Shown here one piece after another: positions 10,732 through 47,840 of a DNA stretch of 64,000 nucleotides. The first letter of the stretch is position 1. Each line of letters opens with the position of its first letter. Below the pieces are notes generated by a model. The model saw nothing but the letters and a program-made list of their open reading frames with translations, made no database searches and had not been told where the DNA came from. Origin of the DNA: Slackia sp. (GTDB lineage Bacteria; Actinomycetota; Coriobacteriia; Anaerosomatales; Anaerosomataceae); assembly GCA_020725885.1 (NCBI GenBank), contig DYEA01000011.1, forward strand, positions 1 to 64,000, in the 5' to 3' direction. The translations under genes and the position numbers were made by a program.

Positions 10732-12813
10732 CTAACGGCGGCTGAGGTTCACGTGGCAGTGCGCACAGTACGTCGGCTTGTGGCACTGGAAGCACGGCTC
10801 CGCGCCGCTCTGCTTGACGATGTTCGGGTGATACGTCATCCACGGCTGCTTGGCGACAGCGCCCTTGTGGTGGCAGTTGTCGCAGAAGAACTGGCTGTGG
10901 CAGTTCACGCACACCGGCTTCGTCAGCTTCTTGGCCTGGAAATCGGCCTTGTGTGTGTCCTTGAAATCGGCCGGGTGCGGCATCGGCAGCTTGTGGCAGT
11001 TCTTGCAGAACTTCGCCTCCGTGCCGCCGGTACCGTGGCAGTACTCGCAGCTGTCGGTCTGGGCCTTGTACGCCGCCGAGTGCTTCGCGGCCTTGCCGAT
11101 CGCCAAGTTCCGCGTCCAGTCAGGCGCCTTGTGAGACGTCGGGAGCGCCTTCAGCCTCGTGTGGCAGTCCACGCAGAACTGCTTGTCCTGGTGGCACTTC
11201 TCGAAGCACGGCGCGGTGCCCTTCGCCGCCACTGCCTTCGGGTGCTGCTTCTGCCACGGCACGCCGTTGATAGCGCCAGCGTGGTGGCAGTCCGAACACA
11301 CCTCCTTGAAGGTGTGGCAGTTCGCGCACAGCTGCGGCGTCTTGCGGCCGGACACGTGGTTCTTCTTGAACGTGTCCGGGTGCGGCATCTCCATGCCGTG
11401 GCAGCCCCTGCAGAACTTGGCGTTCGTGCCGCCAGGACCGTGGCACACGTCGCAGCTGTCGATCGCCTTGAGCGCCGCGAGCGCGTGCTTGCCGGACGGT
11501 TCGGCCGCCTTCTCGCCGTACTTGGTCACGGTCAGCTTGTCACGCAGCCACTTCGCGTCCTTGTGCGAGCTCGGCAGCGGCTTGAGCTTGGTGTGGCACT
11601 CGACGCAGAACTTCTGGTCGTGGCACGCGCCGAGGCACGGGCTGACGCCGTTGGTGGTGACCGCCTTGGCGTGCTGCGTCTTCCAGACGACCTTCGGATC
11701 GTACTTCCAGTTGACCTTGGTGCCGTGGTGGCACTCGTTGCAGAACTGGTAGTTCGTCTTCTTGACCTGGTGGCACAGGTCGCACTTGTCCATCTTGGTC
11801 TTGGCGACCTCGGGGTGCGTCTTCTCCTTGAACTCCGCCGGGTGCGGCATCTCCATGCCGTGGCAGCCCATGCAGAACGTCGCCTTCACGTGGCAGGTCG
11901 CGCAATAGTCGACCTTGTCGACCGGGACGAGGTGGAGGCCCTCTTCTTCCTTCGCTTCCTCGGCCGCCTCGCCGTGCTCGCCACCTTCGGCCTCGGCCGC
12001 CTCAGTGCCTTCCTCAGCCTCGGCAGCCTCGCCCTCGGCCGGCTTGCCGGTCGAGCGGTCGATCTTCGCCATCGCGAGCTTCGCGTGGCCCTTCGGGTAG
12101 AAGCCCTTCTCCTTGTGAGACGGCGGCTTGAGCTCGAAGTCGGGCGTGTGACATGCCGAGCACTTGCCGGGGGCCTTGATACCGCCAGCCGGAGGCTCAG
12201 AGGTGAGCGTGTGGCACCGGAAGCACGCCGTCATCGACATGAAGTTCTGGTGCTTCACGCTCTTCTTGCCGGTCTTCGGGTCGGTAAGGGTCGGCTCCCA
12301 GTCGCCGCTCTCGTTGTGCGCGACGCGGTTGTGGCAGGCCGTGCAGTGCACTTCCTTCTTCTCGTGCGCCTCGTGGTCGATCTTGATGCCGGGGCTCGGA
12401 GTCACCTTGCGCGTCGCAAGGTTGTGGCACTGCGTGCACTGCCGGGAACCCATGTGGTGCTGATCCATGGCCAGGTGGCTGTCAGGGTTGAGCGGCAGCT
12501 CGAAGTTGTTCGTGACCGTCAACACCAGCTCGCCGAGGGCCTTGGCCTTGTAATAGGTGAAGCTGATCGGATCGGCATTCACCGGCTCGTGGCACGACAT
12601 GCACGAGACCATGCTGTGCGACGACCTGTTGTACGCCGCAATCGAGTCGTCCTGGACCTTGTGGCACACGCTGGCGCAGAACCAGTAGGTCGACGTCGCG
12701 CCGAACGCGACGATGATGAACGCTGCGAGCGCCAGGACGACGACGCCTGTCCAGATGACGTACCGTGGTCGCCGTACCGGATCTTTGAACCCGGCCAAAG
12801 AGATCTTCGCCAT
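10732..12813 (-). CDS. Membrane-anchored 24-heme c-type cytochrome
   Basis: 693 residues with 24 covalent haem motifs: 21 CXXCH plus three CX3CH (residues 46, 393, 536). One N-terminal membrane helix (about 18-40) runs straight into the first two haem motifs (46, 71), as in NapC/NirT quinol-oxidising cytochromes. Four further sites (126-218) complete an N-terminal six-haem part. After an acidic Glu/Ala linker (260-291) come three tandem hexahaem repeats (about 304-425, 454-570, 589-693). Start 12813 has GGAG eight bases upstream; an ATG two codons earlier is too close to that site. Likely role: moving electrons from the quinone pool outward across the wall, for respiration or extracellular electron transfer. 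No partner enzyme is adjacent. Confidence 0.95.
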   Translation of the reverse strand: MAKISLAGFKDPVRRPRYVIWTGVVVLALAAFIIVAFGATSTYWFCASVCHKVQDDSIAAYNRSSHSMVSCMSCHEPVNADPISFTYYKAKALGELVLTVTNNFELPLNPDSHLAMDQHHMGSRQCTQCHNLATRKVTPSPGIKIDHEAHEKKEVHCTACHNRVAHNESGDWEPTLTDPKTGKKSVKHQNFMSMTACFRCHTLTSEPPAGGIKAPGKCSACHTPDFELKPPSHKEKGFYPKGHAKLAMAKIDRSTGKPAEGEAAEAEEGTEAAEAEGGEHGEAAEEAKEEEGLHLVPVDKVDYCATCHVKATFCMGCHGMEMPHPAEFKEKTHPEVAKTKMDKCDLCHQVKKTNYQFCNECHHGTKVNWKYDPKVVWKTQHAKAVTTNGVSPCLGACHDQKFCVECHTKLKPLPSSHKDAKWLRDKLTVTKYGEKAAEPSGKHALAALKAIDSCDVCHGPGGTNAKFCRGCHGMEMPHPDTFKKNHVSGRKTPQLCANCHTFKEVCSDCHHAGAINGVPWQKQHPKAVAAKGTAPCFEKCHQDKQFCVDCHTRLKALPTSHKAPDWTRNLAIGKAAKHSAAYKAQTDSCEYCHGTGGTEAKFCKNCHKLPMPHPADFKDTHKADFQAKKLTKPVCVNCHSQFFCDNCHHKGAVAKQPWMTYHPNIVKQSGAEPCFQCHKPTYCAHCHVNLSRR
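10735..11049 (-). repeat. Hexahaem repeat unit 3 of the cytochrome
   Basis: Encodes residues 589-693: CEYCH, CKNCH with LPMPHP, CVNCH, CDNCHH, CFQCH, CAHCH. The fifth site is ordinary CXXCH instead of CX3CH, and the unit is cut short after the sixth haem, ending the protein. Confidence 0.85.
11104..11454 (-). repeat. Hexahaem repeat unit 2 of the cytochrome
   Basis: Encodes residues 454-570: CDVCH, CRGCH with MEMPHP, CANCH, CSDCHH, CFEKCH, CVDCH, ending RLKALPTSHKAPDW. Closest match to unit 1, including the CX3CH at the fifth site. Confidence 0.85.
11539..11904 (-). repeat. Hexahaem repeat unit 1 of the cytochrome
   Basis: Encodes residues 304-425. Haem motifs are CATCH, CMGCH (followed by MEMPHP), CDLCH, CNECHH, CLGACH and CVECH, ending in KLKPLPSSHKDAKW. 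The same order and spacing recur in units 2 and 3. Confidence 0.85.
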
Positions 12814-13011
12814 ACGCATCTCTCCTCGCTCGTCCCGGATCTCAGCGCTGCACACGCCAGGAGCGGCCCCTCGCGCCGCTGCATGCGCCTAACTGTATCC
12901 GAACCCTTGTGACGCGACAATACAAGCCGCTTGTGATTTCGCTTCGCAGAGCGCGGTTCCTGCCGCTCGATGCACGCATGCGTGACGCGTCAGGGCGGGC
13001 CAGGGCGGCGA

Positions 13012-14294: not shown

Positions 14295-14322
14295 GCCGTG
14301 CAGAGGGATCCAGGAGGACACC

Positions 14323-14526
14323 ATGCGCATGTACACCGTTGACGCAAGCGTTTGCGACCGCTCGCCGGCGTGCCCCGCTAGGCGGGTCTGCCCGAAAGGC
14401 GCGATCGTCCCACGTCCCGGCGGACCGTATCCGGGATACAATGGCTACGAAGTCGACGAGAGCCGGTGCGCGGGCTGCGGCATCTGCGCCCGCGTGTGCC
14501 CGACCGGCGCCGTCACCCCGGCCTGA
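14323..14526 (+). CDS. Small 4Fe-4S ferredoxin-like protein
   Basis: 67 residues with two cysteine groups: an unusual CX5CX5CP at residues 11-24 (CDRSPACPARRVCP) and a canonical CX2CX2CX3CP at 50-61 (CAGCGICARVCP). Each group contributes to a cluster, so a two-cluster ferredoxin is possible, or one [4Fe-4S] plus another metal site. ATG 14323 has AGGAGG five bases upstream; an upstream ATG (14266 frame) overlaps the promoter. It is followed after 15 bases by the selenoprotein gene, so the two are cotranscribed and perhaps form a redox pair. Confidence 0.87.
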   Translation: MRMYTVDASVCDRSPACPARRVCPKGAIVPRPGGPYPGYNGYEVDESRCAGCGICARVCPTGAVTPA

Positions 14527-14541
14527 CAGGAGGACTGCAGG

Positions 14542-14877
14542 ATGGCGAACCCCGTCGTGACGGTGGAGGTCTTCGACTTCCCGATCGAGACCAGTTGCTT
14601 CTCCGGTGGCTGAGGCCCCTCGTGGTCTCCGGCGGAGATCACCGAGATGGTCAGCTCTGAAGTCGAGTCGCGGTTCGGCGACGCAGCTCGCGTGGTGTAT
14701 CTCGACACCACGCGGCCCGAGGTGCAAGCACAGCACGCGGAGATGATCGCGACGATCAAGGAGAACGGCTGGGTCTACCCGGTCACCGTCATCGACGGTG
14801 AGCCCGTGTACGAGGGCGCGGTGTCGTACCCCGGCATCCTGCGCGCCATCCAGTCCAAGCTCCAGCAGCTCGCCTGA
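14542..14877 (+). CDS. Probable selenoprotein, thioredoxin-fold-like (UGA at codon 24 read as Sec)
   Basis: 111 residues if the in-frame TGA at 14611-14613 is read as selenocysteine. The active site is C-F-S-G-G-U-G-P-S (Cys19, Sec24). The frame is open on both sides, the start has AGGAGG eight bases upstream, and a SECIS-like hairpin begins 5 bases after the UGA. The rest reads as a small thioredoxin-like fold (VVTVEVFDFP strand, then VYPVTVIDGEPVYEG and a C-terminal helix), reminiscent of YuzD/DUF1462 disulfide oxidoreductases. Conventional gene calling would see only a shorter frame from 14647. Partner: the ferredoxin just upstream. The substrate is unknown; peroxide, disulfide or persulfide reduction is plausible. 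A nonsense mutation is the alternative. Confidence 0.8.
14619..14646 (+). promoter_or_regulatory. Bacterial SECIS element
   Basis: Hairpin directly after the UGA: CTCG (14619-14622) with CGAG (14643-14646), one bulged C (14642), then TGGTCTCC (14623-14630) with GGAGATCA (14634-14641), and a GGC apical loop (14631-14633). The loop starts 17 bases after the UGA, within the 16-37 base range of bacterial SECIS elements, and has the expected G at the loop start. Confidence 0.75.
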
Positions 14878-47732: not shown

Positions 47733-47740
47733 GCGAACTC

Positions 47741-47840
47741 CTTTCCGAGCACGGGAGGCCGAGGAGTTTCCTGCCTCGACCCTATCGGTCCTGGCTCCCT
47801 AGCGGTGACCAGCCGCCGTAGGACTCCAGGACTCGGAGGC
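47741..47840 (-). promoter_or_regulatory. Moco-type riboswitch (molybdenum/tungsten cofactor RNA motif)
   Basis: The tupA leader folds like the MOCO RNA motif (Rfam RF01055). Elements on the minus strand: closing CCGAG/CTCGG (47832-47836 with 47745-47749), GTCCTGG/CCAGGAC (47826-47832 with 47788-47794), inner CCTA/TAGG and GCGG/CCGC (47798-47822), and hairpin CGAGG-N9-CCTCG (47760-47778). The 3' part, with AGGG before that hairpin and GCCTCCCGT then GGAAAGG after it, matches my memory of the E. coli moaA leader. GGAAAGGAG doubles as the tupA ribosome site, so control would be of translation. Confidence 0.75.

Follow-up and report, generated by a model that had tools for sequence, protein, structure and literature searches.

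A predicted family of thioredoxin-fold selenoproteins of Actinomycetota with a C-X4-U motif, encoded next to a ferredoxin gene in most close relatives

Several described protein families resemble the gene product that is the subject of this study. The DUF1462 (YuzD) family has a thioredoxin fold (PMC3091736), and its structure 1xg8 represents S. aureus SA0798/SA0789. ArsD (PF06953) also has a thioredoxin fold (3mwh, 3kgk), and its motif residues Cys13 and Cys18 have been reported to be essential for arsenic chaperone activity (PMC4562236). In addition, small thioredoxin-like selenoproteins are known, namely Sec.1 and Sec.2 of Brachyspira, SaoT, HUIPC, and UXX-star, which contain one selenocysteine (Sec) within or close to the active site and have a bacterial SECIS element. 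For the latter, a bSECIS model with limits for the loop, the spacing, and the stem (4–16 bp) has been published (PMC13188914).

The window, i.e., the whole stretch of 64,000 nt from Slackia sp. that was analyzed, contains a gene that is interrupted by an in-frame TGA and has been predicted to encode a selenoprotein. The features of the locus are as follows:

14323–14526, + strand: gene for a 67-aa 2[4Fe-4S] ferredoxin of the CDRSPxCPxRRxCP type, with its own SD motif at 14312–14317 (Pfam Fer4, 3.6e-9)
14528–14533, + strand: AGGAGG ribosome-binding site of the selenoprotein gene, read from the sequence
14542–14877, + strand: predicted selenoprotein gene, 111 residues with Sec24 (C19-X4-U24-G-P-S), DUF1462/ArsD-like thioredoxin fold (sequence, Pfam, homologues, alignment, model, and fold match)
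14611–14613, + strand: in-frame UGA, predicted to encode selenocysteine, codon 24 (kept in 63/63 homologues and 47/47 loci)
14619–14646, + strand: putative bacterial SECIS hairpin, 3 + 9 bp, one bulged C (fold prediction, synonymous-site constraint, and compensating pairs)
14631–14633, + strand: apical loop GGC, starting 17 nt after the UGA (sequence; bSECIS model in PMC13188914)
14647–14877, + strand: 76-aa ORF, C-terminal fragment of the predicted selenoprotein and no separate gene (ORF listing; internal ATG in only 5/55 homologues)

Reading frame, homologues, and selenocysteine machinery

Direct reading of the sequence confirmed the predicted frame, which runs from the ATG at 14542 over 23 sense codons, the TGA, and 87 further sense codons to a TGA stop codon at 14875–14877. 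The translation contains the active-site stretch Cys19-FSGG-Sec24-GPSW. The ORF listing also agreed with the expectation that standard gene finding would yield only the 76-aa fragment that starts with the ATG at 14647. In 55 homologues the base 3′ of the Sec UGA was always G (Gly25 is next), and the Gly codon 5′ of it was GGT in 42 cases, a possible context preference for read-through.

When 200 related genomes were searched in six frames, 64 of them had a match. Exactly one in-frame TGA was present in all 63 homologues, which stem from the order and a neighboring family; the match in the 64th genome was a weak one to ArsD, the only weak non-Sec match among the relatives. Scanning a collection of 84,980 species with a profile led to 47 loci, which partly overlap with the set of 63 homologues, and all 47 had a TGA at the Sec codon. 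The respective records belong to Coriobacteriia, Anaerosomatales, or other Actinomycetota. No match was obtained when the same collection was scanned with the single protein as query. Profile searching of 397 Actinomycetota genomes added 21 genomes from other families of the phylum. One TGA was found inside the match in 20 of them, and upstream of the match in genome G423. In total, the Sec form is carried by 84 genomes (63 + 21). Phage records gave no match, and plasmids gave only an ArsD.

In the alignments, the TGA occupies one column between the invariant Cys19/Gly23 and Gly25-Pro26 (motif C-X4-U-G-P-[ST]-W), and the residues on both sides are conserved in frame. Codon 24 of the homologues and resequencing of the TGA had been proposed as checks of the original prediction. 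Sec was kept throughout at this codon, and the TGA is shared by dozens of independent assemblies, which rules out a sequencing error. No orthologue with Cys at the exact Sec position was found in the related genomes, the species collection, or the profile search within Actinomycetota, and therefore, a Cys/Sec pairing test leans on the more distant ArsD motif.

Four loci, L167 of G423 and the paralogues L152, L153, and L154, had been candidates for TGA-less forms, and they were rejected because upstream extension of the frame revealed a TGA in each of them. The three paralogues (genomes G355, G245, and G326) are shorter second copies with an in-frame TGA in a V/L-P-S-G-U motif, and thus at a different Sec position; they probably represent another Sec subfamily. 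A DUF1462-type paralogue with CxxC and without Sec was observed in G423 (L177, 1426–1788), just 3′ of a HypC-like ORF.

The search for selABCD that had also been proposed was successful. In the window's genome, selA, selB, and selD are located inside 7 kb of one contig, and tRNA-Sec is also present. The selD gene (L088, G000 contig C4:9458–10375, − strand) itself has an in-frame TGA, and thus, the SelD of this organism is probably a selenoprotein too. SelA was detected in 52 of the 63 carriers. The 11 carriers without a SelA match are all draft assemblies that are 64–98% complete (e.g., G012 and G015); three of them have tRNA-Sec, one more has a selB match over the cut-off, and in the other seven neither SelA nor tRNA-Sec nor selB was clearly seen. 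All 10 distant carrier genomes that were tested contain tRNA-Sec. Two tRNA-Sec matches above the gathering score were observed in each of G245 and G503.

The candidate SECIS hairpin

The hairpin has the sequence CTC-GTGGTCTCC-GGC-GGAGATCAC-(C)-GAG, comprises 12 bp, and begins 5 nt past the TGA. Its original description, with one bulge and a GGC loop 17 nt past the TGA, was recovered in the sequence as well as in the predicted MFE fold, which includes the region 14619–14646. Comparison with the published bSECIS model showed that all constraints are satisfied, i.e., a 3-nt loop, G as its first nucleotide, a spacing of 17 nt, a stem inside 4–16 bp, and an MFE of −21.6 kcal/mol.

Taken alone, the hairpin proves little, because a comparable geometry was found after 12 of the 1305 TGAs in the window, which makes it an event of about 1%. 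Its folding energy was unremarkable in comparison to shuffled sequences (z = −1.26; 25 of 200 shuffles fold equally well), and as folding energy is not discriminating in this GC-rich DNA, it was left out of the evidence. An Rfam scan at low threshold yielded chance matches only. It is the comparative evidence from 63 of 63 homologues and 47 of 47 loci that places the hairpin far beyond chance.

The synonymous entropy of the codons at positions +5 to +9, counted from the UGA, was 0–0.13 bits in 55 unique sequences, versus 0.7–2.3 bits expected. Within this stretch, Ser +5 was encoded by TCT in 51/51, Pro +6 by CCG in 53/53, and Glu +8 by GAG in 55/55 cases. Codons +1, +2, and +10 had full synonymous entropy, as elsewhere in the gene. 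Outside the order, amino acids and bases differ, yet the stem is kept. Depending on the group, the loop-closing pair is C-G, A-U, U-A, G-U, or G-C, and the seventh stem pair alternates between G-C and U-A. Across the distant groups, 96.6% of the cells were paired and 29 cells were changed on both sides. The stem covariation was 0.411, versus 0.167 in shuffles (0/500), and slid controls reached at most 0.146. An A-A mismatch occurs in 3 of 29 distinct hairpins, two of which are from the window's own genus, where Thr replaces Ser. Judged from these sequence comparisons, the hairpin is under selection as RNA. On computational grounds, the gene in the window is almost certainly a genuine selenoprotein gene.

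Protein family, gene neighborhood, and possible function

The window protein scored 34.9 bits with the Pfam model DUF1462 (PF07315), the cut-off of which is 25; the most distant family members are below the cut-off. The best PDB sequence-profile match was 1xg8. An AlphaFold2 model built from the family alignment had a pLDDT of 89 and a pTM of 0.81, and 1xg8 was also the top Foldseek match to this model (E 3.4e-5, TM 0.63), with thioredoxins and ArsD (3mwh, 3kgk) at lower ranks. The model places Cys19 and Sec24 in the loop that connects strand 1 with helix 1, the region of lowest confidence, and they would thus be at the usual place of a redox pair. The Pfam score, the 1xg8 match, and the model all bear out the predicted thioredoxin-like nature. 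Within the DUF1462 (YuzD) family of thioredoxin-fold proteins, the window protein represents a divergent branch with Sec and not YuzD itself. No model of NCBIfam release 20.0 matches it. The family, which originally could not be named with certainty, can be assigned to DUF1462/YuzD as a divergent form with an ArsD-like motif. It is missing from the 2026 catalogue discussed below.

The selenoprotein ORF begins 15 nt after the ferredoxin gene in the same direction, and the two genes look like a two-gene operon. The predicted pairing was recovered in 29 of 40 loci, in which the ferredoxin gene is directly upstream and its end falls in the range from 26 nt ahead of the start to 4 nt past it. An upstream ferredoxin was not detected in 11 of the 40 loci, one of which has just 475 nt of upstream sequence. 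In family f39, a ferredoxin of the same type (CDRSPGCPARR) is encoded two genes upstream of the Sec homologue, and 12 loci have a DUF362-ferredoxin gene downstream. No FTR gene was noticed beside the selenoprotein gene. The neighborhood theme across the groups is Fe-S electron transfer together with soft-element chemistry (sulfur, arsenic), and not a single pathway.

Farther away in the window, 10732–12855 (− strand) encodes a large protein that resembles multihaem c-type cytochromes and has many CxxCH motifs. An ORF at the corresponding place is conserved in 38 loci; its distance to the selenoprotein gene, which follows downstream, is about 4 kb. A molybdenum/tungsten cofactor riboswitch is located at 47738–47838 (− strand; Rfam RF01055, 55.9 bits).

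With hhalign, C-X4-U-G-P-S was aligned to Cys13-X4-Cys18-G-P-S of ArsD (93–95% probability). The selenoprotein could thus be no redox enzyme but an ArsD-like carrier of metals or metalloids, with Cys19 and Sec24 binding As(III), Hg(II), or a similar soft ion. We regard this as unlikely, even though ArsD is among the fold matches of the model and is also the sole weak non-Sec match among the relatives. The ArsD Pfam model gave only 17.3 bits (cut-off 27), and of the Cys12-Cys13-X4-Cys18 trio only Cys13 and Cys18 have counterparts (Cys19 and Sec24), so that a vicinal Cys pair is absent. A Sec homologue (GGUGPVCEPADCGP) does lie within an ars operon in G423 (L167, 1482–8795; order ArsD-ArsR-ArsA-ArsA-Sec protein-SBF/Usp-methyltransferase, SBF being an SBF-family transporter), but the gene in the window adjoins the ferredoxin gene and no ars genes. 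The window's genome contains no ArsD, and for ArsA only partial P-loop matches and no full-length gene were found. ArsD is present in 2 of 69 relatives, whereas most of them have the Sec gene. The low score, the lack of the vicinal pair and of ars genes, and the absence of ArsD from the genome led us to reject an identity as ArsD. A candidate "ArsD with a TGA" in G048 turned out to be an ordinary ArsD, and the TGA is its normal stop codon.

In family f41 (L155–L160, L172), the Sec homologue follows a ThiI/NFACT-R gene, and in several of these genomes also a gene for a 2-thiouracil desulfurase (DUF523), which suggests a sulfur-handling operon. From this arrangement, the selenoprotein might be a sulfur or selenium carrier (persulfide or perselenide) in a transfer chain, e.g., to tRNA or cofactors. 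This is improbable for the window protein, as such genes are not found beside the selenoprotein gene in the window's order, and the motif of f41 is C-X3-U, so that the function of f41 may differ too.

It is hardly credible that the protein is not a selenoprotein at all, with the TGA being a true stop codon in a broken gene or ahead of a separate start at ATG 14647, or being reassigned genome-wide: a GGAG at plausible spacing precedes this ATG and the fragment alone would be acceptable as an ORF, but the ATG is present in just 5 of 55 homologues, the universal TGA, the conserved residues upstream of it (Cys19 included), and the RNA-level selection on the hairpin also led to the rejection of a pseudogene, and a global reassignment does not occur because TGA is the stop codon of the selenoprotein gene, of 30 of 55 homologues, and of the adjacent ferredoxin gene.

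Taken together, it is very probable that the locus encodes a genuine selenoprotein of an uncatalogued small thioredoxin-fold family, the gene of which appears to form an operon with a ferredoxin gene. According to this reading, when a ribosome arrives at the UGA at 14611, SelB with Sec-tRNA would bind the computationally identified hairpin just 3′ of it, and Sec would be inserted at residue 24. Cys19 and Sec24 would form a reversible selenenylsulfide, which might, as fold and neighborhood hint, take electrons from the partner ferredoxin or donate electrons to it. The substrate that the pair would then reduce in these anaerobes could be a disulfide, a peroxide, or a compound of sulfur or a metalloid. 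We put the chances of such a ferredoxin-coupled selenenylsulfide that reduces a substrate at about even. A wider and more tentative view is that of an old thioredoxin-fold selenoprotein superfamily across anaerobic Actinomycetota that has no Cys orthologue. Here, a dedicated 2[4Fe-4S] ferredoxin would transfer electrons directly to the selenol, and side branches would be adapted to arsenic and to the transfer of sulfur.

Comparison with described systems

Among the 119 families of prokaryotic selenoproteins that were compiled in a 2026 catalogue (PMC13188914), there is neither DUF1462/PF07315 nor ArsD nor an entry with a C-X4-U motif, in line with the suspicion that the group might be undescribed. 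In the openly readable literature, DUF1462 or YuzD was not found to be described as a selenoprotein, and literature searches revealed no selenoprotein study for Anaerosomatales/OPB41 and the other Actinomycetota that are carriers. The family may have been detected earlier as an unnamed candidate, for instance in a deep-Sep survey of groundwater MAGs. It represents previously uncatalogued, small thioredoxin-fold selenoproteins and reaches other families of Actinomycetota, and the bacterial selenoproteome would gain a family and the C-X4-U motif. Every member found has Sec and none has Cys, which is unusual and offers a clean test of why organisms keep paying for selenocysteine. The family is probably mis-annotated throughout, because a gene finder that takes the TGA as a stop codon truncates the gene in every genome. 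Because the order has cultured members (PMC9686372), 75Se labeling is feasible.

The window protein is most similar to DUF1462/YuzD, as it passed the Pfam cut-off and 1xg8 was the best PDB profile and fold match. In contrast to the C-X4-U-G-P-S of the window protein, 1xg8 has a CxxC motif (CASC), which was not found in the window protein, and its loop is two residues shorter. ArsD shares the fold and has C-X4-C-G-P-S, with Cys in place of Sec; the window protein differs from it by the score below the ArsD cut-off, the missing vicinal Cys pair, and the absence of ars genes around it. Like Sec.1/Sec.2, SaoT, HUIPC, and UXX-star, it is small and thioredoxin-like, with a single Sec within or close to the active site and a putative bacterial SECIS element, but their motifs are CxU, UxC, UxxC, and GxGU and thus differ from C-X4-U. 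The possible use of a ferredoxin as electron source for a thioredoxin-fold protein is reminiscent of ferredoxin:thioredoxin reductase systems. In contrast to these systems, we hypothesize a direct transfer between ferredoxin and selenoprotein, which, if true, would be a redox system that has not been described previously.
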